From NCBI GenBank assembly GCA_927797885.1, contig OV696605.1:1339157-1403156 (forward strand): DNA of 64,000 nt, given 5' to 3'. The notes under the pieces were generated by a model. The model did not search any database. It saw only the letters and a list, made by a program, of their open reading frames with translations, and was not told the origin of the DNA. Source of the DNA: Gloeomargaritales cyanobacterium VI4D9 (lineage in GTDB: Bacteria; Cyanobacteriota; Cyanobacteriia; Gloeomargaritales; Gloeomargaritaceae). A program made the translations under genes and the position numbers. Shown here piece by piece: positions 20,919 through 45,216 of this stretch. Positions within the stretch are counted from its first letter, which is position 1. Each line of letters starts with the position of its first letter.

Positions 20919-22026
20919 CACAAGTGTTGAATCCTGCAATAAAACTTTACATATTTAGGCGTGGGACGACCCGATTGAGCCAATGGACAAAATTCCACTC
21001 CTGCCGTATTAAGATTTGTATATATCGGAACTTATCTGCCAATTTACTTCCGTACATCCGTGGAACTTTTAACAGTTGCAATATCAAGTAAACTATTAAA
21101 ATTACATAAATTTGAATGGTAATTCCATTCAAATTTTTACTCATCATTTTATCGAGCTTTAAGTTCATCTTTAGAAATTTCCATAGTACCTCTATCGCCC
21201 AGCGTTGTCTATAGGCTTCCCCTATCTCTTCATTACTCATTACATCCTCAGGAATATTGGTAGCTAAATAATAGTCTACTTTCTGTTGAACATTGCCAAA
21301 ACAAACTACTCTCGCCTTACCTCGTTCTGTGGTGATATGATAGTTTTCATCCCATTTCCAATTCGACTTAATACGGATAATAAAAAGGGCATCATTTTCG
21401 ATAAATTGTTCAAATACTTTGTGACTGCAAAACCCTCTATCCCCGACTGCGACTCCATTTTCCGGTAGCATTTTCACAATATCTTCACCAAAATTAATCT
21501 CATGTGCCTGTCCAGGACTAACAATTAAATGACCAGTAGATTTCGTATCTTGATTCAAAGTGGTTATTAACTTTACTTGGCGATAGCCTTGGAGCCAAAA
21601 TAACTTACTCATCAGCGGTATTACGGTAGCATCAAAAGGACATAAAACCAACCTCTTTTCAGGATGAGCTTCCTCAATATAATGCAATAATTTATGATAA
21701 AGATGCATAAAAATTTGTGGGTCTCTTGTCTTGTTCGCCTTAGAAAACGTGGATAAGTCAACCTTAATGCCCGCATGATTTAATTGGTAAAATAAGTCCC
21801 GTAAACTGTTGATTCCTTTGTCCAAAATGCCAGCAAACCAGATTGAACAAAATAAGCGAGAATTTAGAACTGGATAATCATTAGTTGGCAGGTCTTTGAG
21901 TAAAAATTTGACAATCCCGGGAAAAGAATTGAATTTCATAGTTGTTTCATGTTTTGGTTTATATGAATTAGAATACCATATTTTGACCCCTCTTTTTCTG
22001 CCTTTACCTACCTTTCAACACTTCTG
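20919..22026 (-). mobile_element. IS4-family insertion sequence (1108 bp) inside nifE
   Basis: The ends are CACAAGTGTTGAATCC and, inverted, CAGAAGTGTTGAAAGG. The 9-bp target duplication GGGTAAAAC is at 20910-20918 and 22027-22035. It contains one complete transposase gene. The second copy at 34891-35998 is the same length and encodes an identical protein, indicating recent activity. Confidence 0.95.
20947..21939 (-). CDS. IS4-family DDE transposase
   Basis: 330-residue transposase that cuts and pastes the surrounding element. Catalytic residues are expected in CPFDATVIP (first Asp), GVAVGDRGF (second Asp) and YRQRWAIEVLWKFLK (Glu within a YREK-like signature of the IS4 family). The frame is intact and identical to that of the copy at 34978-35970. 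The gene is carried within nifE and transcribed in the same direction as it. Confidence 0.93.
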   Translation of the reverse strand: MKFNSFPGIVKFLLKDLPTNDYPVLNSRLFCSIWFAGILDKGINSLRDLFYQLNHAGIKVDLSTFSKANKTRDPQIFMHLYHKLLHYIEEAHPEKRLVLCPFDATVIPLMSKLFWLQGYRQVKLITTLNQDTKSTGHLIVSPGQAHEINFGEDIVKMLPENGVAVGDRGFCSHKVFEQFIENDALFIIRIKSNWKWDENYHITTERGKARVVCFGNVQQKVDYYLATNIPEDVMSNEEIGEAYRQRWAIEVLWKFLKMNLKLDKMMSKNLNGITIQIYVILIVYLILQLLKVPRMYGSKLADKFRYIQILIRQEWNFVHWLNRVVPRLNM

Positions 22027-26105: not shown

Positions 26106-27366
<1,261 letters not shown>

Positions 27367-29414: not shown

Positions 29415-29680
29415 GCCCGTCCTCCTTTTTGGCGCAAGCGATGGACAAGTTGGTTGTAGTGGGTGAACCATTCCCGCCAGTAGGTATTGAAATCCTCCAA
29501 CTGGTAGGGAGAATTGTTGACAAAAATGCCGCCGCAGGGATATTCCTTCAGGCTGTGACAGCGGTCGCATAACTTGGCATCGAGTTGATAATGGTGGTTA
29601 CGGTACTGAATGGCACCCCGCGGACACCGGGCACGGCATTCCGCCCAACTCATGTATTGATTAGTTGCTGTGTAGGGCAT
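29411..29680 (-). CDS. fdxN: FdxN-like ferredoxin with missing cluster cysteines
   Basis: 89 residues in the fdxN position between nifB and nifS, overlapping nifB by 20 bp. The start MPYTATNQ and the C-terminal helix [17 protein letters not shown] match cyanobacterial FdxN. The first cluster motif, normally CxxCxxCxxxCP, reads [12 protein letters not shown], with Y9 and W12 replacing the first two cysteines. The second region retains C38, C41 and C49 but lacks the usual following CP. Only five cysteines remain, so at most one unusual cluster could form. FdxN supplies electrons to NifB, so this version may have changed function or be decaying. Confidence 0.85.
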
Positions 29681-31094
29681 GATCCACCTCCATTTGCGTA
29701 CGCATAAACTGGGTGTAAAACTTGCGCGCGACGGTTTCGATCACGTCATAATCTTCAAACGGTTCAATCCCGCTCTTTCTTAGTTTTTCCTGGGGACAAC
29801 TCCCAATTTTGGAACAAAGTACACCCCTGCAATCACTGATGGTTTGGATGATATTTTCCAAAGTTGCTTCTTCGCCATAACCACTTTGGCAATAGTGATC
29901 AATCTTGCGGTGTCCCACAAAATTCACACTGTTGCCATCCACTTCATAGATGAGAAATTCCTTCGCATGACCAAAGTGTTGATTGACCAAGCCACCGCCT
30001 TTGCTGGCAACGGCAACCAAAATTTTGGGAGTGGGTTTGACATTTTTGCCCTGAAGTTTGGCTTTTTGTTCTGCCAATTCCATTTTTCGGAGTTCGATGC
30101 GGGTATGCGCCAACCGCCGCTGTTCCGTATCGTATTCGGGTTGCATGGTCATGAATTTCTCTTTGGTGAACTCTTGGGAGCGGTCTTCCCCTAATAAACC
30201 CACCGCATCCGCCCGACATTGCCGACAATGGCGCATCATCTTCATATCGCCCGCGCACCTATCCTGCAATTCCTTCAGTTCTTTGGGCGTGGGTCCCCGC
30301 TGTCCATTCAGACCAAAATAAGTGCCATGCTCTGGTGCGGAAATCAGGGGCATAATGTTATGTAAAAATGCGCCCCGCTCCCGAATCACCCGATTCACTT
30401 CCACCAAATGCTGGTCATTAATGCCGGGAATCATCACCGAATTCACCTTGCAGAGAATGTCCGCTTCTTGGAGTGCCTGCAAACCTTCCTGTTGCCGTTC
30501 GAGGAGGATTTTCACCCCTTCGATGCCCTTAATCCGCTTTCTCTGCCAGCGAATCCAAGGATAAATGCGAGCGCCAATTTCCGGGTCAACGGTGTTAATC
30601 GTGATCGTCACATGGTCAATGTTCAGTTCCTTGATTTTGTCCACATAGTCCGGCAAATTTAAGCCATTCGTAGAAAGGCAGAGTTTAATATCCGGGGCTT
30701 TTTCGGCAATCCGAGCAAAGGTTTCAAAGGTCTGTTTGGGATTTGCCAAGGGATCGCCAGGACCCGCAATGCCCACCACCGTCATCTGCGGAATTTTGCC
30801 CGCAATCACCAGTACCTTATGGGCGGCTTCCTCTGGGGTCAGGGTTTCGCTCACCACACCAGGGCGGCTCTCATTGGCGCAGTCATATTTGCGATTGCAA
30901 TAATTGCACTGAATGTTACACGCTGGCGCCACCGCTACGTGCATCCGGGCGTAATGGTGGTGCGCCTCCTCGCTATAACAGGGATGCTTGGCAATACGCT
31001 CCTTGATACGTTCATCCCGACTGGCGAGGGTATCGCCGAGATTTTGTTGGGTACATCCGCAATTTTTAGCGGGATTAGAAGGGGGGGGAGTCAT
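29661..31094 (-). CDS. nifB: FeMo-cofactor biosynthesis protein NifB
   Basis: 477-residue radical-SAM enzyme that fuses two 4Fe clusters and inserts carbide to make NifB-co. The SAM cluster motif is [15 protein letters not shown], followed by the [11 protein letters not shown] segment. Cysteine motifs near the middle ([13 protein letters not shown]) are also present. The C-terminal ~110 residues ([20 protein letters not shown] onward) form a NifX-like domain. It is the first gene of the minus-strand nif operon, facing the 658-bp control region. Confidence 0.97.
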
Positions 31095-31193
31095 GGAAGA
31101 GTGCCTGTATGAATTGATTGCACTCGTTATAACACCGCCCCCTTTTGCCGACGGACATCCCCCTGGGAATAACTTGATTAAACCTATTAAAAA

Positions 31194-31590
31194 TGTACTC
31201 AGCCCCCCAATCCCTATGCCCCTGGGACATTGATTTTTCTTTTGCCCCCGAGAACGGGTATATTTCCAGGCAGGGTCAGGATATATCTGCGGATTTTTGA
31301 GATTAAATGCACTCAGCCAAACCCTTGGCTGGCAAGGATTTCAGGGATAAATCGCCACCGCTTATCAGTGTACTCACCCCCACCTAATCCACTGGTTAAA
31401 CCCTCCACTGACTTCTGTATAAATAGTAACATAATCCCCGCAAATGGTCACATAAGATACCAAAAATAACGTTAAATTTTTTCTCTATCGGGCAACTGGT
31501 AGTAAATAATACAAATTAGGGTGAGTACAGCCTATTCACCGGCACATTTCCCCGTTGATACGGATGGGGATGAACGTTGCGTTGAGTACA
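31194..31590. promoter_or_regulatory. mirror-symmetric TGAGTACA motif array between nifB and orf83-nifV
   Basis: Five near-identical octamers. TGTACTCA occurs at 31194-31201 and 31369-31376, and TGCACTCA at 31308-31315. The inverse TGAGTACA occurs at 31522-31529 and 31583-31590. Pairs on each side are 61 bp apart and point toward their own operon. The inner four are mirror-symmetric about position 31449. The array occupies the gene-free 658 bp separating divergent nif operons, so it is a likely activator site set. CnfR is one candidate regulator, but I cannot confirm the match to its published element from memory. Confidence 0.7.
31499..31512. promoter_or_regulatory. NtcA box GTAN8TAC in the nif control region
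   Basis: GTA-GTAAATAA-TAC is a perfect match to the NtcA consensus. It lies ten bases before a TGAGTACA motif and about 240 bp upstream of orf83, with CTATTCACC about 20 bp downstream as a poor -10. Nitrogen control through NtcA is plausible given its position among nif promoters. Confidence 0.5.
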
Positions 31591-31752
31591 CATATTCCTA
31601 CTTCGGCAACCGGAAATCCATAGAAAACTGCGGAAAACACCCGTACCTGCCCCTGGATTGCAATAAATCCAATAAAACGATTTGGACTTGGTGTCTAAGC
31701 CTAATGCCAGACACTTGCTATAACCAAGCCATCCCATTACGGAGTTTTATTC

Positions 31753-32004
31753 ATGCCAGAGTCTATCTTGACCGACCGCATTGATTCCCTACCCATTGGG
31801 GAGCGGTGGAATGTGCGTTTGCGTTTGGAAGAACTAGCGATTAGTTGCGAATGCCGGAAAGATGGTTCATTGGATATTCACATCAAGAATTCCAACGAGG
31901 CGTTGTTAGTTCGCATGATTCTTTTGCGGCACAAGGCTTCCCGTTCACAACATTTGGCATGGTTAGAACGATGTTGGCATTCATCTCCAGACTCAGGAGG
32001 CTAA
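31753..32004 (+). CDS. small nif-cluster protein of unknown function (83 aa)
   Basis: 83 residues starting MPESILTDRIDSLPIGERWN, first gene of the plus-strand operon that contains nifV and nifZ. GGAG precedes the ATG by nine bases. The sequence has a beta-rich middle (VRLRLEELAISCECRKDGSL) and two helices with several Arg/His residues. I do not recognise the family with certainty. Its stop lies within the leader of the next small gene, so both are translated together. Confidence 0.7.
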   Translation: MPESILTDRIDSLPIGERWNVRLRLEELAISCECRKDGSLDIHIKNSNEALLVRMILLRHKASRSQHLAWLERCWHSSPDSGG

Positions 32005-32149: not shown

Positions 32150-33286
32150 ATGATTGACCCAATTATCATCAACGATACCACCCTAAGAGATGGGGAACAG
32201 ACCGCTGGGGTTGCTTTTAATATGCGGGAAAAATTAGCCATTGCCCGTCTATTAGACCAAATTGGCATCCCCGAATTAGAGGTAGGCATTCCCATCATGG
32301 GGGGCGAGGAAGCAGAAGCGATCAAAGCTCTGGTGCAAGCGGGATTAACCGCCCGTTTACTCGGCTGGAATCGCTGTAAAATTTCCGACCTGGAAGCGTC
32401 CCTCGCCTGTGGGCTGGAACGGGTGCATATTTCCGTGCCCGTATCCGATGTGCAAATTGCCGTCAAATTTCACAGCAACCGCTGGGCGATGCTTGCCCAA
32501 CTGAAACACTGCATCGAGTTTGCCAAAGCCCACGGTCTCTTTGTGGCGGTCGGGGGGGAGGATAGTTCCCGGGCAGACCCGGAGTTTCTCTTGGACGTTG
32601 CCCGCTATAGCCAAGCCTGGGGAGCGGAGCGATTTCGTTTTTGTGACACGGTGGGAAAACTAGACCCCTTTGCCACCTACGCACAGATTGAAAAATTAAC
32701 CGCCGCCCTGGAGATTCCTGTGGAAATGCACACCCACAATGACCTGGGGATGGCGGTGGCGAATGCGTTGGCAGGCATCAGAGCCGGGGCGCGCTCGGTG
32801 AATACCACGGTGAATGGGTTAGGAGAACGGGCGGGGAATGCGGCACTCGAGGAAGTCGTGATCGCCCTCAAGGAACTCTATGGCATCAAATTACCCATCC
32901 GCACGGAGCGTTTTTGGGAACTCTCCCAAGTGGTCGCCCAAGCCGCCAATTCTCCTCCCCCGTTGTGCAAGCCCGTGGTGGGTGAAAATACCTTTTCCCA
33001 CGAATCGGGTATCCATGTCCACGGTCTTTTGGTCAATGCCGACACCTATGAACCCTACCCCCCGGAAGTCGTCGGGCGGCAACGCCGGTTTGTGATTGGC
33101 AAGCACTCGGGCACCCATTTCATCACCCATTTTCTGCAACAGGAGGGCATCCAAATTACTCCCCCGCAAGCCCGGGCAATTTTAGCCATCGTGCGCCGTC
33201 GGGCTACGGAATCCAAAAGGGGGTTATCCCTGGCGGAGTTAGTGCAAATTAGTCAACAAATCAATCAAACCCTGGAGGTATCCTAA
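32150..33286 (+). CDS. nifV: homocitrate synthase NifV
   Basis: 378 residues. It condenses acetyl-CoA with 2-oxoglutarate to homocitrate, the organic ligand of FeMo-cofactor. Family signatures are [18 protein letters not shown] at the N-terminus, [18 protein letters not shown] (metal-binding His pair) and [15 protein letters not shown]. The length matches NifV rather than the longer isopropylmalate synthases. nifZ starts 1 bp after its stop, so the two are coupled. Confidence 0.96.
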
Positions 33287-33287
33287 A

Positions 33288-33587
33288 ATGAGCCGTTCAG
33301 AAATGGAACTCGACGCACCCCCAATTTTTGAGATTGGTCAGAAAGTGCAACTAACCAAAACCATCCGCAATGACGGCACCTTTTCTGGTCGGGAACTCCG
33401 GGAAATTCTCGCCCGCAAAGGCGATGTAGGCTACGTTGTGGCAATTGGCACGTTTTTACAATCCTTCTACATCTACAGTGTGCATTTCATTGAGTTGGGG
33501 ATTGTGGTGGGGTGCCGTGCCTCTGAATTAGCATCCCCAGTGGGAGAAAAAAGTCAAATCCGCTACCAAAATCCAGAAAACTCTTAA
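33288..33587 (+). CDS. nifZ: NifZ
   Basis: 99 residues. The core FEIGQKVQLTKTIRNDGTF followed by ARKGDVGYVVAIGTFLQSFYIYSVHFIELGIVVGCR is typical of NifZ, which helps P-cluster maturation in the MoFe protein. It starts immediately after nifV. The C-terminal tail is poorly conserved. Confidence 0.93.
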   Translation: MSRSEMELDAPPIFEIGQKVQLTKTIRNDGTFSGRELREILARKGDVGYVVAIGTFLQSFYIYSVHFIELGIVVGCRASELASPVGEKSQIRYQNPENS

Positions 33588-34890
33588 AAAATAGTAAATA
33601 TGCTTAACAGATAACAGAAAATTATCAGTCTGCGCCCTTAAAGTTTGAACTACTTTAACCGTATCTGCCCATGACTGACCCGGCGCAAAATTGCGGGATT
33701 TGCCCCATCCAAACCTTCAAGAACCAGGAAGTCCAGGGGGATGCGGTACCCGAGCCAATTGCCCTCTCGCCGGTGGATTCAGCCTGCCAACAAGTATCTT
33801 CCTGTCTAAGTAATTGGTTCAGCGTCCCCCAGGGCAAACCGGCGACGATTGACTATCCCCAAGCCAATATCACGCTCTATCAAAATGGGAAAAATCAACC
33901 CTTTGCCTCCTGTCTGGTGATTTGGCAAGCCTGTCATTTGATGACCCAAAGACCCTACCAGCACTGGCAACCCGCCGGGGAATTCATGACCTATGAATAT
34001 GAAAGCCGAGCCGGTCGGTTGATTTATCGCCTCCCCCGCCATGCGGTAAAAAACATGGATACTCGGGTGGTTTTGATCCATTTATTCTTCGCCGCCTGTG
34101 CCACTCAAAAAGCCCGTCCCTGGGAAGAGGAAATGGTGATTAATGACCGGATTATTGCCGAATTTTTGGGACTCAACCAACGCAAGGATATAAACCGGGT
34201 AAAGAAACTACTTTTAATCGAATCTTTGGTCAGGCAAGCCTGCGAATTACAAGTAGAAATCCATTGGCAACAAAAAGGCAGGATCAAAGCCATCCATCTG
34301 CCGGCGGAACCCCTCTGGTTTGCCCGTCCTGCGTACCATATTGCCAAAGCGGAAGACGGTTTCCATTATCTGAGCGGTTTATCCTTCCGAATGTTAGCAG
34401 GTCGTTGGTCAACCTATTTTTTGAATCAACAACAGGCACGGAGCAAAACCGCCTATTACCAATACGGGTGTCTGCCCATGTCTTTGCCCCCTAAAATCAT
34501 GTATCTCTGGCAACGGCATGAGGGGGCAGTCGTAATGTTACTACACTTCCTATTTCGGTTACGGGTTGGGCAAGACCGCAGTGCCAAAATTGCGACCTTA
34601 CTGAAACTCATTTATGGGGAAGAATATCTGCAAATCGCCTGGTATAAATCGGACGTGCGGCGCAAGTTAATTACCAGCTTTGAAGCCGATCTGGAGCAAT
34701 TATTTTATTACGGTATCAAACCCTTATTTGAGAGCAGTACCTATCCTGAGTCCATTCAACCCTGGTGGGTGCGTGCCCAGGATTTACCGGATGATCCAGA
34801 GGAAGCGCTGAACTACTGGACAGAAGTAGCTCAGGAAGAAAAAACAACGGTCAACTCGAAGCAAAAATGGTCTCAGTTATTGAATGCGGC

Positions 34891-35998
34891 CAGAAGTGTT
34901 GAAAGGTAGGTAAAGGCAGAAAAAGAGGGGTCAAAATATGGTATTCTAATTCATATAAACCAAAACATGAAACAACTATGAAATTCAATTCTTTTCCCGG
35001 GATTGTCAAATTTTTACTCAAAGACCTGCCAACTAATGATTATCCAGTTCTAAATTCTCGCTTATTTTGTTCAATCTGGTTTGCTGGCATTTTAGACAAA
35101 GGAATCAACAGTTTACGGGACTTATTTTACCAATTAAATCATGCGGGCATTAAGGTTGACTTATCCACGTTTTCTAAGGCGAACAAGACAAGAGACCCAC
35201 AAATTTTTATGCATCTTTATCATAAATTATTGCATTATATTGAGGAAGCTCATCCTGAAAAGAGGTTGGTTTTATGTCCTTTTGATGCTACCGTAATACC
35301 GCTGATGAGTAAGTTATTTTGGCTCCAAGGCTATCGCCAAGTAAAGTTAATAACCACTTTGAATCAAGATACGAAATCTACTGGTCATTTAATTGTTAGT
35401 CCTGGACAGGCACATGAGATTAATTTTGGTGAAGATATTGTGAAAATGCTACCGGAAAATGGAGTCGCAGTCGGGGATAGAGGGTTTTGCAGTCACAAAG
35501 TATTTGAACAATTTATCGAAAATGATGCCCTTTTTATTATCCGTATTAAGTCGAATTGGAAATGGGATGAAAACTATCATATCACCACAGAACGAGGTAA
35601 GGCGAGAGTAGTTTGTTTTGGCAATGTTCAACAGAAAGTAGACTATTATTTAGCTACCAATATTCCTGAGGATGTAATGAGTAATGAAGAGATAGGGGAA
35701 GCCTATAGACAACGCTGGGCGATAGAGGTACTATGGAAATTTCTAAAGATGAACTTAAAGCTCGATAAAATGATGAGTAAAAATTTGAATGGAATTACCA
35801 TTCAAATTTATGTAATTTTAATAGTTTACTTGATATTGCAACTGTTAAAAGTTCCACGGATGTACGGAAGTAAATTGGCAGATAAGTTCCGATATATACA
35901 AATCTTAATACGGCAGGAGTGGAATTTTGTCCATTGGCTCAATCGGGTCGTCCCACGCCTAAATATGTAAAGTTTTATTGCAGGATTCAACACTTGTG
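34891..35998 (+). mobile_element. IS4-family insertion sequence (1108 bp), second copy
   Basis: Same length and ends as the copy in nifE (CAGAAGTGTTGAAAGG at left, inverted CACAAGTGTTGAATCC at right), here in plus orientation. The 9-bp duplication GAATGCGGC is at 34882-34890 and 35999-36007. The sequence stretches I compared with the nifE copy are identical. Confidence 0.95.
34978..35970 (+). CDS. IS4-family DDE transposase (second copy)
   Basis: 330 residues, identical to the transposase in nifE (catalytic segments CPFDATVIP, AVGDRGF and YRQRWAIEVLWK). Both copies are intact, so either could drive movement of the element and of the 175-bp MITE in nifH. Confidence 0.93.
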   Translation: MKFNSFPGIVKFLLKDLPTNDYPVLNSRLFCSIWFAGILDKGINSLRDLFYQLNHAGIKVDLSTFSKANKTRDPQIFMHLYHKLLHYIEEAHPEKRLVLCPFDATVIPLMSKLFWLQGYRQVKLITTLNQDTKSTGHLIVSPGQAHEINFGEDIVKMLPENGVAVGDRGFCSHKVFEQFIENDALFIIRIKSNWKWDENYHITTERGKARVVCFGNVQQKVDYYLATNIPEDVMSNEEIGEAYRQRWAIEVLWKFLKMNLKLDKMMSKNLNGITIQIYVILIVYLILQLLKVPRMYGSKLADKFRYIQILIRQEWNFVHWLNRVVPRLNM

Positions 35999-36284
35999 GA
36001 ATGCGGCAATTACGATCAGGGAATTTCCCGAGGATTGGCAGGCAGAAACCCCTAAAAAAGAAATCAGACCCAGAACGAACCGCAAATCCACCCCGGCTTA
36101 TTCGGTTACGGGTGCCATGATCAAACAAGCCAGACTCCGGCAGGGGATTAGTCAAAGGCAGCTTTCTACCTTGTTGCATAAAAGTCAAAGCTGGATTCGT
36201 GATATTGAATTAGAGAGATATAAAATCAAACCCAAAGATGTACAACTTCTTGCTTCCGTGCTGGTGGATTTACCCCATTCATAA

Positions 36285-36686: not shown

Positions 36687-38993
36687 ATGGGCAAAGAAGG
36701 CTTGGAAGCAGGATTTTTGACGGACAACAATTTAGCAGAACTTCCCTCAAAAGAGGGGGGGAAATTGCGGGTAGAGTGGCAAGGATTTAAGCCGAATCTA
36801 TGGAATGAAACGGTTAATGTACGGGATTTTATTCAAACCAATTACACCCCTTATACCGGGGATGGTTCCTTTTTAACCGGAGCAACTGCCCGGACGGAAA
36901 AGCTCTGGGCACAGGTCAAGGAACTTATGCGCCAAGAACGGGAAAAAGGGGTATTGGATGCGGATACGGCAGTGCCTTCTGGCATCACTGCCCATGCCCC
37001 TGGCTATATTGACCGGGAATTGGAGCAGATCGTCGGACTGCAAACGGATAAGCCCCTTAAGCGTGCCATCATGCCCTTTGGCGGAATTCGCATGGTCAAA
37101 AGTGCCCTGGAAGCCTACGGTTATCAGCTTGACCCCCAAACGGAGGCGATTTTCACCAAGTACCGCAAAACCCATAACGACGGGGTGTTTGATGCCTATA
37201 CGACGGAGATGCGCAACTGTCGCCGGTCGGGGATTATCACGGGTCTGCCGGATGCCTATGGACGGGGACGGATCATCGGGGACTACCGCCGGGTAGCCCT
37301 CTATGGCACCGAATTTTTGATCAAGGACAAGCAGGAGCAACTGCGCTCCCTGGAAGGCAATGTCATGGATGAGCCGACCATTCGCCTGCGGGAGGAACTT
37401 TCCGAGCAAATTAAAGCCCTGAAAGAATTGCAACAGATGGCGCAAAGCTACGGTTTTGACATCAGCCAGCCTGCGGCAAATGCCAGGGAAGCTTTCCAGT
37501 GGCTCTATTTTGCCTATTTGGCGGCGGTGAAGGAACAAAACGGAGCGGCGATGTCCTTGGGTCGGGTATCCACGTTCCTCGATATTTATTGCGAACGGGA
37601 CTTGGCGCTAGGACTGATCACCGAAGCAGAAATCCAGGAGTTGGTCGATCATTTTGTGATGAAACTCCGCATGGTGCGATTCCTCAGAACGCCCGATTAC
37701 AACGAACTGTTTTCTGGCGATCCCACTTGGGTCACGGAGGCGATTGGGGGCGTGGGAGAAGACGGCAGACCCCTGGTGACGAAAAACAGTTTCCGGTTTT
37801 TGCAGACGCTCTATAACTTGGGACCCGCCCCGGAACCCAATTTGACGGTGTTGTGGTCAGAACAATTACCGGACAACTTCAAACGTTTTTGCGCCCAAAC
37901 TTCCGTTGATACCAGTTCCATCCAGTACGAAAACGATGACCTGATGCGTCCCTACTACGGGGATGACTACGGTATTGCCTGCTGTGTCTCGGCGATGCGG
38001 ATCGGCAAGCAAATGCAGTTCTTTGGTGCCAGGGTCAACTTAGCAAAAGCACTTCTCTATGCCATCAATGGCGGTCGGGATGAAAAGTCGGGGGATCAGG
38101 CTGCGCCCGTGATGCCTCCCATCACCGACGAAGTGCTGAATTTTGACGTGGTAAAAGCCCGGTTTGAAGAGGTCATAGCCTGGTTGGCACGCACCTATGT
38201 CCATACTCTCAATGTGATTCACTATATGCACGACAAGTACTGCTACGAACGCATTGAGATGGCACTCCACGACCGGGATGTGTATCGCACGATGGCGTGT
38301 GGCATTGCGGGGCTGTCGGTGGTGGCTGATTCCCTGTCAGCGATTAGATATGCTAAAGTGCAACCCATTCGGGACGACCGGGGTTTAGCCGTTGACTTCA
38401 AGATTGAGGGTAGCTATCCCACCTACGGTAACAACGATGACCGGGCGGATGAACTGGCGGTCTGGGTGGTGCAAACCATGATGAACGCCCTTAGACAACA
38501 AAAGACCTACCGGGATGCGGTGCCGACCCAATCGGTGCTGACCATTACTTCCAATGTGGTCTATGGCAAAAAGACCGGTACAACCCCCGATGGACGCAAG
38601 GCTGGTCAACCCTTTGCCCCCGGTGCCAACCCCATGCACGGGCGGGACTGTTGCGGTGCGCTTGCTTCTTTGGCTTCTGTTGCGAAGTTGCCCTACCAGG
38701 ACAGCTTGGACGGCATTTCCAACACCTTCTCCATCGTGCCCAAGGCGTTAGGACGTACGGGAGCCGAGCAGGTGAGCAACTTGGTGAATATGCTGGACGG
38801 CTATTTCCACGATGGCGGGCATCACCTGAACGTGAATGTGCTGCAACGGGAAACCCTGCTCGATGCGATGGAACACCCCGAACAGTATCCCCAACTCACC
38901 ATCCGGGTATCGGGTTATGCGGTCAACTTTGTCAAACTTACCCGTGAGCAACAACTTGATGTCATCAGCCGCACCTTCCACGACCGGTGTTAA
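36687..38993 (+). CDS. pflB: formate C-acetyltransferase (pyruvate formate-lyase) PflB
   Basis: 768-residue glycyl-radical enzyme that cleaves pyruvate with CoA to acetyl-CoA and formate under anoxia. The active cysteine pair is in [14 protein letters not shown] and the radical glycine is G743 in RVSGYAVNF, 25 residues from the end. The [23 protein letters not shown] segment is also typical. The enzyme is oxygen-labile once activated. It is first of four consecutive fermentation genes; its activase gene overlaps its 3' end. PFL is uncommon in cyanobacteria and known from some mat species that ferment at night. Confidence 0.96.
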
Positions 38994-39708
38994 GGGCAAA
39001 ATCCATTCCTTCGAGAGCATGGGGACGGTGGACGGTCCCGGTATCCGCTTTGTGGTGTTTACCCAGGGCTGTCCCCTCCGATGCCTCTATTGCCACAATC
39101 CCGACTGTCGGACAATCTACGGCGGCAGGGAAATCACGGCAGGGGAAGTGATAACAGAAGTTCAGAAGTACCGTTCCTACCTGAAGGGGGGCGGGGTGAC
39201 GGTGAGCGGCGGTGAACCCCTCATCCAACCGGAGTTTGTCTCTGCCATCTTTCAGGGTTGCCACGAGTTGGGACTCCATACCGCCCTGGATACCTCTGGC
39301 TATTGCCCTGTGGCGGTTGCCCAGCCCGTTTTGGAGCATACGGATTTGGTGCTTTTGGATATTAAGTCCTTTGATCCCCAAATCTATCAGCGGGTGACCC
39401 ATGTTTCCCTGGAGCCGACCCTGGCGATGGCAAGGCATTTAAGCAGGATACAGAAACCTACCTGGATTCGCTTTGTCTTGGTGCCCGGTCTGACGGATGC
39501 CCCCCATAACATTGAGGGATTGGCGGATTTTGTGGCGACCCTCAGTAATGTGGAGCGGGTAGAGGTATTGCCCTTTCACAAAATGGGGGAATACAAATGG
39601 GAACAGTTGGGTTTGAACTATCTGTTAAAAGATACGCCGGAACCGGAGGAATCCTTAATCAGCCAAACCAAAGCCACTTTCCGAGCGAGGGGACTATTTA
39701 CCCCTTGA
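38959..39708 (+). CDS. pflA: pyruvate formate-lyase activating enzyme PflA
   Basis: 249-residue radical-SAM activase that places the radical on G743 of PflB. The SAM-cluster motif is [13 protein letters not shown], preceded by [18 protein letters not shown] and followed by [12 protein letters not shown] chose ATG 38959 ([10 protein letters not shown]), which overlaps pflB by 35 bp; an upstream frame extension is the shadow of pflB. It is clearly co-translated with pflB. Confidence 0.95.
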
Positions 39709-39786
39709 TCCCAATCAGAAGCTGAAGTTTCCTAGCAGAAAAGTAAAAACGTTTGTAGCCTAAAGATAGGCAAAGGAGGAACTGAG

Positions 39787-42441
39787 ATGCGCGTCACTGA
39801 TGAAGCAACCTTAAATGAGTTGATTGCCAGGGTCAAAATTGCCCAAGAGGAGTTCGCCACCTTTTCCCAGGCGCAGGTTGACCGGATTTTTCAACAGGCG
39901 GCAATCGCGGCGAATGAAGCCCGTATTCCCCTAGCGAAAATGGCGGTGGCGGAAACCGGCATGGGCATTGTGGAAGATAAGGTGATCAAAAACCATTTTG
40001 CCTCGGAAATTATCTACAACAAATATAAGGATGAAAAAACCTGTGGAGTGATTGAAGAAGATAAACATTTCGGTATCCAAAAAATTGCCGAACCCGTAGG
40101 CATTTTGGCGGGCATTGTTCCTACGACCAATCCCACTTCTACGACGATTTTTAAGGCATTATTAGCCATCAAAACCCGCAATGCCATTATTTTTTCCCCC
40201 CACCCCAGAGCCAAAGCCTGCACGATTGAAGCCGCCCGCATTGTCCTCAAAGCCGCTGTCGCCGCCGGTGCCCCCGATCCCATCATTGGCTGGATTGATG
40301 AACCCACCGTGCCCCTGTCCCAAGCCCTCATGCAACACCCGGACATCAAACTCATCCTGGCAACGGGGGGACCGGCGATGGTCAAAGCCGCCTACTCGTC
40401 CGGGCATCCGTCCTTGGGGGTAGGGGCTGGCAATACCCCCGCCTTGATTGATGTCAGCGCCGATATACCGATGGCGGTCAGTTCCATTCTGCTGAGCAAA
40501 ACCTTTGACAATGGCACGATTTGCGCTTCGGAGCAGGCGGTGATCGTGGTGGAAGATATTTATGAATCAGTGAAGCAAGAATTTGTCCGGCGGGGTGCTT
40601 ATATCCTTTCTCCTGAAGAAGTGGAGAACGTGCGCCAAATTATTCTCCAAGATGGCAGGTTAAATCCGGCGATTGTAGGACAGCCGGTGGAGCGCATTGC
40701 GGAATTGGCAGGCTTTACGGTTCCCCAGGGGACTCGGTTGTTAATTGGCGAAGTGACAGAAGTAGGGGAACATGAACCCTTTTCCTATGAAAAATTATCA
40801 CCGATTTTAGCCATGTATCAGGCACCGAATTTCCAGGCTGGGGTAGAAATTGCTTCCCAGTTGGTGAATTTTGGCGGTAAGGGGCATACGGCGGTACTCT
40901 ACACTGACCCTGCGAACCGGGATGACCTCGCCTATTTTGAACACCATGTCGCCGCCAGTCGGGTGTTATTAAATACGCCTTCTTCCCAGGGGGCAATTGG
41001 GGATTTGTATAACTTCAAACTCGATCCTTCTCTCACTTTGGGTTGCGGTACTTGGGGCGGTAATTCCATCTCGGAAAACGTGGCTCCTCATCATTTGCTG
41101 AATATCAAAACCGTGACGGAACGGCGGGAAAATATGCTTTGGTTCCGGGTGCCCCCCAAAATTTATTTCAAGTTTGGTTGTCTGCCGGTGGCATTGCGGG
41201 AATTGCAGGGGAAAAAACGGGCATTTCTGGTTACTGACAAGCCCCTATTTGATATGGGAATGCTCAAGGAAGTGGAGGACATTTTGGAAGAACTGGGGAT
41301 CGAGTTTCAAACTTTCTATGAAGTGGAACCCGACCCGACCCTGACGACGGTGGAGAAAGGTTTAGCCCGGTGTCGCAGTTTTAACCCCGATGTGATCATT
41401 GCCTTTGGCGGCGGTTCCCCGATGGATGCGGCGAAGGTGATCTGGCTGATGTATGAACATCCTGAAGTGGAATTTTCCGGGATCGCCATGCGGTTTATGG
41501 ACATCCGCAAGCGGGTCTATGCCCTGCCCACCCTGGGACAAAAGGCGATTTTGGTGGCGATTCCCACTACTTCCGGTACGGGGTCAGAAGTAACGCCCTT
41601 TGCCGTCGTGACCGATGATCGCACGGGCATTAAATATCCCCTGGCGGACTATGCCCTCACCCCCAATATGGCAATCGTTGACCCGGAATTGGTGATGAAT
41701 ATGCCCAAGAAACTCACTGCCTACGGGGGGATTGATGCCCTTACCCATGCGATTGAAGCCTATGTTTCGATCCTGGCGACGGAATTTACGGAAGGGCTGG
41801 CACGGGAGGCGATTCAACTGTTATTTGAATATCTGCCCAGGGCGTATAAACTCGGTGCGAAAGACCCCGTTGCCAGGGAAAAAGTTCATTATGCCGCCAC
41901 GATTGCGGGGATGGCGTTTGCCAATGCGTTTTTGGGGATTTGTCACTCTTTGGCGCACAAACTCGGCTCCACCTTCCATGTGCCGCACGGTCTGGCGAAT
42001 GCCCTGATGATCTCCCATGTGATCCGTTACAACGCCACCGATGCCCCCTTCAAGCAGGCAATCTTTCCCCAATACACCTATCCCCACGCCAAACAACGCT
42101 ATGCGGAAATTGCCGACTTTCTTCACCTGGGCGGGCGCACGGAGGACGACAAGGTCGAGCGGTTGATCCATGCCATTGAAAACCTCAAACAGGAACTGGA
42201 TATTCCCCTTTCCATTAAGGAAGCACTCCCGGATCGGGAACGGGAATTTTATGAAAGCGTGGAAAAAATGGCAGAACAGGCTTTTGACGACCAATGCACG
42301 GGTGCCAATCCCCGTTATCCCCTGATGCGGGACCTGAAGGAGCTTTACATCCTGTCCTACCAAGGGTGTCGTCTGGACAGTGCCCTGTACCATCAACCGG
42401 ACAACTGGGACAACTTAGCGGTCACCACCACCGATGGTTAA
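39787..42441 (+). CDS. adhE: bifunctional acetaldehyde-CoA/alcohol dehydrogenase AdhE
   Basis: 884 residues. The N-terminal aldehyde-dehydrogenase half carries the catalytic cysteine in NGTICASEQAVIV. The C-terminal iron alcohol dehydrogenase half has GGGSPMDAAK and the metal histidines in ALTHAIEAY and CHSLAHKLGSTFHVPHG. It reduces acetyl-CoA to ethanol, reoxidising two NADH. AGGAGG lies before the ATG. AdhE can also reactivate or protect PFL in enterobacteria. It is third in the fermentation run, 78 bp after pflA. Confidence 0.96.
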   Translation: MRVTDEATLNELIARVKIAQEEFATFSQAQVDRIFQQAAIAANEARIPLAKMAVAETGMGIVEDKVIKNHFASEIIYNKYKDEKTCGVIEEDKHFGIQKIAEPVGILAGIVPTTNPTSTTIFKALLAIKTRNAIIFSPHPRAKACTIEAARIVLKAAVAAGAPDPIIGWIDEPTVPLSQALMQHPDIKLILATGGPAMVKAAYSSGHPSLGVGAGNTPALIDVSADIPMAVSSILLSKTFDNGTICASEQAVIVVEDIYESVKQEFVRRGAYILSPEEVENVRQIILQDGRLNPAIVGQPVERIAELAGFTVPQGTRLLIGEVTEVGEHEPFSYEKLSPILAMYQAPNFQAGVEIASQLVNFGGKGHTAVLYTDPANRDDLAYFEHHVAASRVLLNTPSSQGAIGDLYNFKLDPSLTLGCGTWGGNSISENVAPHHLLNIKTVTERRENMLWFRVPPKIYFKFGCLPVALRELQGKKRAFLVTDKPLFDMGMLKEVEDILEELGIEFQTFYEVEPDPTLTTVEKGLARCRSFNPDVIIAFGGGSPMDAAKVIWLMYEHPEVEFSGIAMRFMDIRKRVYALPTLGQKAILVAIPTTSGTGSEVTPFAVVTDDRTGIKYPLADYALTPNMAIVDPELVMNMPKKLTAYGGIDALTHAIEAYVSILATEFTEGLAREAIQLLFEYLPRAYKLGAKDPVAREKVHYAATIAGMAFANAFLGICHSLAHKLGSTFHVPHGLANALMISHVIRYNATDAPFKQAIFPQYTYPHAKQRYAEIADFLHLGGRTEDDKVERLIHAIENLKQELDIPLSIKEALPDREREFYESVEKMAEQAFDDQCTGANPRYPLMRDLKELYILSYQGCRLDSALYHQPDNWDNLAVTTTDG

Positions 42442-42465
42442 TTGGTTCATTTAAGGAGAACCCCG

Positions 42466-45216
42466 ATGCAGTCCGCCACCCTTGTCCTTGGAAATGAAGC
42501 GATTTCTGACGTTTGGCGCACCCCCTACCGTTATCCCCTGGAGGTTTTTTTCCACCCCCAAACCATCGCCGTGATTGGGGCAACGGAACGCCCTGGCAGT
42601 GTGGGACGCACCCTTCTCAGCAATCTCATCGCCACGCCCTTTGGGGGAACCGTGTTCCCCATCAATCCCAAGCGTCCGAGTGTGTTGGGGATCAAAGCCT
42701 ATCCCACCATTCACGATGTCCCCGACCGGGTTGATCTGGCGGTGGTGGTCACGCCTGCGCCGACGGTACCGGGGGTGATTGCCGAATGTGCCCAGGCGGG
42801 GGTGAAGGGAGCCATCGTGATCTCGGCGGGCTTTAAGGAAATTGGCGCAGAGGGGATGGCGCTGGAGCAAGCAATTCTGGAGAATGCGGGTCAAATGCGG
42901 ATTATTGGACCCAACTGCCTGGGGGTGATGAACCCCGTTACCGGCTTAAATGCCACCTTTGCCAGCACCATTGCCCGCCCTGGGAGTGTGGGGTTTATTT
43001 CCCAGAGTGGGGCGCTGTGTACTTCGATTTTGGACTGGAGTTTTCAGGAAAATATCGGGTTTAGTGCCTTTATCTCCATCGGCTCCATGCTGGATGTGAG
43101 TTGGGGGGATTTGATCTACTACTTAGGAGATGACCTCCACACCAAAAGCATTGTCATTTACATGGAATCCATCGGCGATGCCCGTTCCTTTCTCTCGGCG
43201 GCTCGGGAGGTGGCATTAACCAAACCGATCATTGTCCTGAAGGCAGGGCGTACCCCAGCGGCGGCGCAAGCCTCTACCTCTCACACGGGGGCGTTGGCGG
43301 GGAGCGATGAGGTTCTGAATGCCGCCTTTCGTCGGTGTGGCGTTTTGCGGGTGGATAATATCTCCGATCTATTTGACATGGCGGAGGTGCTTTCCAAACA
43401 GCCCAAACTGCCCCAGGGAAATCGTTTAATTATTCTCACCAATGCCGGTGGTCCGGGGGTGATCGCCACGGATGCGTTTATTGAGGGGGGGGGCACCCTA
43501 GCGGCAATCGCTCCTGAAACGAAAGCCAAACTCGACCCGATTTTACCCAAGCACTGGAGTCACGGGAATCCGGTGGATATTTTGGGGGATGCGGATGCCC
43601 AACGGTATGCCCAAGCCTTAGAAGTCGTCACCCATGACCCCAATGGGGATGCCATTTTAGTAATTCTCACGCCCCAAGCCATGTCCCAGCTCAAGGAAAC
43701 GGCGGAACAACTGATTGCCTGTGCGAAAAATTATCCCAAACCGATTTTAGCCAGTTGGATGGGGGGAGAAAGTGTCGCCCCTGCCATGCACGCCTTGAAT
43801 GAAGCGGGGATTCCCACCTTTAGTTATCCCGACACGGCGGCGCATATTTTCAATTATATGTGTCATTACAGTAGCAACCTGCGGGCACTCTACGAGACTC
43901 CCCAACTGCCCCCGGATTCGGACGCATTTACCCCAAACCGCCCCCTGGTACAGGAGATATTTGCCCAGGCGCGCCAAGCCGGGCGGAACCTGCTCACCGA
44001 GTACGAAGCCAAGCAAGTCCTCACCGCCTATGGGATACCCACGGTGCCGACGGAAATTGCCACCACCGCTGAGGAAGCCATTGCCATTGCCAACCGCATG
44101 GGTTATCCGGTGGTCGTGAAATTGCTTTCGGAAGTAATCACCCATAAGAGCGATGTGGGGGGTGTGCAACTGAATTTATCCAACCCTGAGGCGGTAGGGG
44201 CGGCGTTTAATTTGATTCGCACCAACGTCAAACCTTGGGAAGCTCAGCATCCCGATGTGTTTTTGGGTGTTACCGTGCAACCCATGTTCCGTGCCCAGGG
44301 CTATGAACTGATTGTGGGCAGTAGTATTGACGTGCAATTTGGTCCCGTGATTCTCTTTGGGACGGGCGGGCAACTGGTAGAAGTCTTCCAGGATCGTTCC
44401 CTGGCACTGCCGCCCCTGAACAGCACCTTAGCCAAGCGGATGATGGAACGCACCCGGATTTACCAAGCCCTGTTGGGGGTACGGGGCAACCGTCCGGTGG
44501 ACATGGATGGTTTGGCGCAACTGCTGGTGCGGTTTAGCCAGTTGGTGGTGGAACAGCCGGAAATTCAAGAGATTGACATCAATCCCCTCTTGGCTTCGGC
44601 GGAACATCTGATTGCTTTGGATGCCAGGGTGGTTTTGCGTTCCGATGCGCCCCCCAAATTGGCGATTCGTCCCTATCCCAGTCAATATATCAGCACTTTT
44701 ACCCTCAAAAATCATCTGCCGGTCACCATTCGCCCGATTCGCCCGGAGGATGAACCCCTGCTGGTGGAATTTCATAAACTCCTGTCCGAGGAGAGCGTGT
44801 ATATGCGCTACACCCACATGATGAAACTGCAATACCGCATTGCCCATGACCGGCTCACCCGCATTTGTTTTATTGACTACGACCGGGAAATGGTGTTGGT
44901 TGCCGACCACAAAGACCCCCAAACGGGCAACCATCATGTGGTGGGAGTGGGGCGGTTATCCCGTTTTCATAACTCAAATAAGGCGGAATTTGCCATGATC
45001 ATCGGGAACCGTTTTCAAAAGCAAGGTTTGGGCACCGAACTCCTGCGCCGTTTGGTGGAAATTGCCCGGATGGAAAATATATTCCAAGTGGAAGCCTATA
45101 TGCTACCGACTAATACTGCCATGCAAAAAATTTGTGAACGGGCAGGGTTTGCCTTTGACCCCCAATTAGAAGAAGGGATGGTGAAAGCCGTTCTGATTTT
45201 ATCCGAGAAACAATAA
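42466..45216 (+). CDS. ADP-forming acetyl-CoA synthetase with C-terminal GNAT domain
   Basis: 916 residues. Order of parts: CoA-binding domain (residues ~20-145, [20 protein letters not shown]), succinyl-CoA-ligase-like domain with [16 protein letters not shown]-grasp domain (~480-700) and a C-terminal N-acetyltransferase (~740-916, [18 protein letters not shown]). This is the PatZ/Pat-type layout. It could either make acetate plus ATP from acetyl-CoA in fermentation or act as a protein lysine acetyltransferase; the position after adhE favours the first, with acetylation as feedback. ATG 42466 follows AAGGAG. The TAA stop overlaps the target duplication of the IS downstream, so the gene is not damaged. 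Confidence 0.9.

Follow-up and report, generated by a model that had tools for sequence, protein, structure and literature searches.

We propose that the intergenic region between the divergent nifB and orf83-nifV operons of Gloeomargaritales cyanobacterium VI4D9 is a bidirectional CnfR-type operator that survives as the recent relic of a dead nif system, a reading to which we assign a probability of about 0.83. An operator of this kind is already known; the instance is new and apparently orphaned, and the unexpected part is a homologue of CnfR without the ferredoxin-type motifs. All positions refer to the window, the 64,000-nucleotide stretch that we analysed from a 3.16-Mb, single-contig genome (G000), and the features are collected in the table.

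A first-pass annotation of this DNA had described five octamers in about 400 bp, three on the nifB side in one orientation and two on the nifV side in the other, with the inner four equally spaced at 61 bp and symmetric about 31449. The positions and the orientation split are as described, and upon recomputing the geometry we obtained inner spacings of 61 bp and 61 bp, with both inner pairs centred on 31449.0; perfect symmetry is limited to these four sites. The copy at 31308 is TGAGTGCA, however, and the array thus consists of four exact TGAGTACA sites and one TGAGTGCA, three of the five facing nifB and two facing orf83-nifV. Clustering beyond chance was borne out: the four exact copies are the only ones in the window (0.73 expected from shuffles), and the Poisson probability of four in 397 bp is ~9 × 10−11, or ~8 × 10−7 genome-wide. 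The genome-wide count proposed earlier gave 55 exact copies of TGAGTACA, compared to 25 for a reversed control pattern, and no 400-bp stretch outside the array held more than one. We read 26 of the 51 copies outside the array and found no extended -10 within 130 bp of any, so there is no sign of a wider TGAGTACA regulon. TGAGTRCANNNNTAAT occurs once in the genome, at the nifB-side proximal site. The pair at the strongly conserved array centre is similar to the TTCTGTATC..ATATCATTT motif that many other cyanobacteria have upstream of nifB; central GTN10AC matches were not adopted as NtcA sites, as they resemble this separate, conserved TTCTGTATC motif.

Table. Features of the nif region (positions in the window unless a locus is named; ".", no strand).
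Feature	Position	Strand	Remarks
IS4-family element splitting nifE	20919..22026	-	same element as in cnfR; target repeat GGGTAAAAC
175-bp miniature element splitting nifH	26503..26677	-	terminal repeats related to the IS; target repeat CCCCGGGCG
nifB	29661..31094	-	first gene of left operon
nifB promoter extended -10, TGTTATAAC	31126..31136	-	conserved in all nif-bearing Gloeomargarita
nifB-side proximal CnfR-type site, TGAGTACA	31194..31201	-	followed by TTTTTAATAGGTTTAATCAAG, A/T-rich element; 67 bp before extended -10
nifB-side middle site, TGAGTGCA	31308..31315	-	one mismatch to TGAGTACA; kept in G002 and G006
nifB-side distal site, TGAGTACA	31369..31376	-	
Conserved array centre	31413..31461	.	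TTCTGTATAAATAGTAACAT and inverted relative GGTATCTTATGTGAC
nifV-side distal site, TGAGTACA	31522..31529	+	
nifV-side middle site, TGAGTACA	31583..31590	+	
71-bp deletion junction relative to G002	31656..31657	.	nifV-side proximal site removed, downstream half AATAAATCCAATAA left; from alignment
orf83-nifV promoter extended -10, TGCTATAAC	31715..31725	+	
orf83	31753..32004	+	first gene of right operon; Asr1405/Asl0597 family (NCBIfam NF045598 match on G002 orthologue)
nifV	32150..33286	+	homocitrate synthase by sequence; synteny kept in all relatives
nifZ	33288..33587	+	Pfam NifZ, 1.7 × 10−31
Degraded NtcA-like box before cnfR homologue, GTAAATATGCTTAAC	33594..33608	+	GTAAATATGCTTAC in G002 and G277
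cnfR homologue, N-terminal part	33671..34890	+	interrupted gene; residues 1 to about 406
IS4-family element, 1108 bp	34891..35998	+	splits cnfR homologue; 9-bp target repeat GAATGCGGC
cnfR homologue, C-terminal HTH part	35999..36284	+	86% identical to G002 residues 402-497
Orthologues of motif-less CnfR homologue	L165:5382-6878; others L168-L173		

We surveyed 50 cyanobacterial nifB loci, which are not independent of each other (many are from Nostocales), and found TGAGTACA to be the most widespread 8-mer upstream of nifB (48/50 loci). There were 138 TGAGTACA sites in 46 kb upstream of nifB, compared to 1.6 expected from shuffles, and 4 in 231 kb downstream; none was found upstream of nifB in 31 proteobacterial control loci. 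Typically, three TGAGTACA sites point towards nifB at intervals of mostly 70-74 and 113-129 bp. After the last of them come an A/T-rich stretch, with a consensus close to TAATAAATCCAATAA, and, about 66 bp on, an extended -10. The functional unit is a triplet per promoter (proximal, middle and distal) in which the proximal site has the extra A/T-rich element; the earlier idea of an activator serving both promoters is supported, but its unit is this triplet and not a pair. Counting TGAGTGCA as a site, full mirrored 3+3 arrays were present in L049, L055, L068, L069, L078 and the sister genome G002; mirrored arrays are general among cyanobacteria, and the array is ordinary in kind. The 61-bp spacing is peculiar to the Gloeomargarita lineage, with 70-74 bp at most other loci, and the exact 61-bp symmetry is not found in all relatives. 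We rejected a need for exact symmetry, since in G002 the proximal-middle spacing is 114 bp on one side and 138 bp on the other. Our search of Gloeomargaritaceae yielded six nif-bearing members of one genus (G000 and G002-G006); no true nifB was found in two further family members, G001 and G007. The closest named NifB is that of Gloeomargarita sp. SKYG116.

PMC8510180 describes three conserved cis-elements in front of nifB as the presumed binding sites of CnfR, and promoters with an extended -10 and no -35; the conserved motif is printed as TGAGTATA, with three copies marked, in PMC4284476. A literature search for the letters of TGAGTACA returned only unrelated sequences. We equate the array with the CnfR element because it is conserved and because it agrees with the published summaries, as far as these describe the element (three elements, extended -10). 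As summarized in PMC8510180 and PMC5943405, the nifB/nifP cis-element of Leptolyngbya boryana, for which nine motifs (I-IX) are defined (Tsujimoto et al. 2016), likewise lies in a single intergenic region between divergent nif operons, with conserved elements upstream of the promoters and CnfR-dependent activation, a dependence that we infer for the array here. Judging from the same summaries, the right-hand operon of L. boryana is nifP-ENXW, whereas here it is orf83-nifV-nifZ followed by cnfR, and the genome examined differs further in having one site deleted and the regulator broken. In Anabaena variabilis, nifB1 and nifB2 are likewise preceded by three copies of a TGAGTA-type motif and an extended -10 promoter (PMC4284476, PMC8510180); the array here has in addition a second, mirrored triplet on the side of the divergent operon. 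Most Nostocales loci that we read have spacings of ~71 and 126 bp, as opposed to 61 and 114 bp here.

The uneven count of three sites against two is true of this genome, but it is the result of a strain-specific deletion. In G002, which has three sites per side, a third nifV-side TGAGTACA lies 138 bp further out, and by alignment G002 and four other Gloeomargarita have TGAGTACA or TGAGTGCA at the place deleted here, in the latter four at 62-63 bp from the extended -10; the imbalance therefore reflects loss of the nifV-side proximal site. On the nifB side, the distance from the proximal site to the extended -10 is the same as in relatives. On the divergent side this distance is 61-65 bp in G002-G006 and G277, while in the genome examined the site is gone and the nearest surviving one is 132 bp from the extended -10. 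Taken together, conservation, the fixed distance to the -10 and the published work support an activator array serving both promoters, with CnfR as the lead candidate.

An IS4-family element interrupts the cnfR homologue, which is the fourth gene in the right-hand operon. We found no second homologue in this genome and hence no intact CnfR. The same element splits nifE, and a miniature element splits nifH. In G002, nifH, nifE and the cnfR homologue are intact, the last encoding a regulator of 498 amino acids. The other full-length NifH-family match in the genome examined is 480 kb away and is probably chlL. There has been a burst of the IS4-family element in this genome, with at least 41 identical full 1108-bp copies; G002 has at least two diverged full-length relatives among the matches listed (40 candidate regions were scored, and copy counts are lower bounds). 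The 175-bp miniature element has ~28 near-full-length genomic copies, many of them identical. Since dN/dS relative to G002 is low (0.04-0.24 across the genes compared) and the intergenic region is 96.7% identical to that of G002 outside the deletion, the inactivation is recent. Directly downstream of the nif cluster (36687-45216) are fermentation genes for pyruvate formate-lyase, its activase, an AdhE-type alcohol dehydrogenase and an acyl-CoA synthetase, the first three of which are also present in G002.

Our searches of the nif loci for CnfR with Fer4_7 and with a cysteine-motif scan returned no candidate, because the local homologue is without these motifs. Both N-terminal ferredoxin-type [4Fe-4S] motifs are missing in all seven lineage members examined. 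Compared to the CnfR/PatB regulators, the homologue shows ~40% identity over some 430 residues, a C-terminal XRE domain (Pfam HTH_3 1.8 × 10−9 in the G002 orthologue) and an identical recognition-helix core (KSQSW[IL]RD in the seven lineage members; canonical helix KSQSWIRD), but matches no more than four of the eight ligand cysteines. Four cysteines are left in most members, with fewer at canonical positions in G004 and G005. Of the features of the CnfR family, it thus has the middle-region homology, the nif linkage and the XRE domain, and lacks the two [4Fe-4S] motifs. About half of the sampled cyanobacteria have proteins ~40% identical to the homologue; the best 22, which we read, have N-terminal ferredoxin-type cysteine motifs, the first (CX2CX2CX3C) being present in 22/22. 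With a strict threshold, the motif-less type was found among 390 sampled genomes only in Gloeomargarita and in G231 and G277, which belong to another family. A branch with an SH-aLRT support of 100 divides this type from canonical CnfR. Every one of the six nif-bearing Gloeomargarita has the homologue; none was found in G001 and G007, which are without a true nifB, and in all seven relatives the gene adjoins nifZ. G231 (L196) has a nif cluster in the same gene order, and its NifB is 87% identical to the window NifB, nearer than any Gloeomargarita NifB except that of G002; this closeness suggests horizontal transfer of a nif cluster involving G231. We consider it an even bet that the homologue is a nif activator of the CnfR type, used by Gloeomargarita and these two other cyanobacteria, that has kept the helix and the TGAGTACA triplets and lost both [4Fe-4S] motifs, so that it would sense low oxygen in another way or not at all.

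When the system is intact, as in G002, both of the divergent nif promoters have three sites each, with the proximal one 61-67 bp upstream of the extended -10. The NtcA consensus is GTAN8TAC. Before cnfR this pattern is perfect in G002 and G277, a near-match in G231 and G006, and mutated in the genome examined; it was not found before the homologue in G003-G005. NtcA may thus switch on cnfR, and the level of the regulator could also rise by read-through from the nifV operon. Once made, the CnfR homologue would bind at all six sites through its conserved XRE helix-turn-helix and turn on the two operons. The cue is probably nitrogen starvation combined with low oxygen, though a protein without the canonical [4Fe-4S] motifs may respond to a different one. 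In the genome examined, the mobile elements in cnfR, nifE and nifH and the deletion of the nifV-side proximal site would have orphaned the array, and nitrogen fixation would have been lost with it. Given these interruptions and the deleted site, the array is probably out of operation here.

It is improbable that the array still works in this strain, kept active by what is left of the regulator, by another XRE protein or by IS excision, with nitrogen fixation under some conditions. Such a working array is consistent with the near-identity of the intergenic region to that of G002 and with the intact frames and low dN/dS of most nif genes, and heterocystous cyanobacteria are known for programmed excision from nif genes. 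A single assembly is also compatible with a mixed population that includes intact copies, or with precise excision of the elements. However, the IS sits before the HTH of the only CnfR homologue found, nifE and nifH are interrupted as well, and the element is a generic IS in dozens of copies and not a site-specific excision element.

We are just as doubtful that the main protein bound at the sites is not CnfR but, say, NtcA or another XRE protein, and that the ORF after nifZ is merely CnfR-like. The modest identity of the homologue to canonical CnfR and its missing Fe-S motifs would fit this, but the octamer is the same and the triplets are similar in genomes with canonical CnfR, the recognition helix is invariant, and within the family the homologue was found in the six members with nif and in neither of the two that lack nifB; furthermore, TGAGTACA does not match GTAN8TAC. 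We give almost no credence to an octamer cluster formed by chance or local duplication: though the motif is short and the exact 61-bp symmetry is not shared by all relatives, the probability is ~10−10 per stretch, and the strong phylogenetic conservation already refutes this origin.

These results place a known operator, in its full mirrored 3+3 layout in G002, in the Gloeomargarita lineage, which is thought to be the closest to plastids. The genome examined would represent a nif system caught just after its inactivation. Finally, with the motif-less CnfR homologue, nature has provided a way to test if it is the [4Fe-4S] clusters that couple CnfR to oxygen, a question that bears on the transfer of nitrogenase to photosynthetic hosts.
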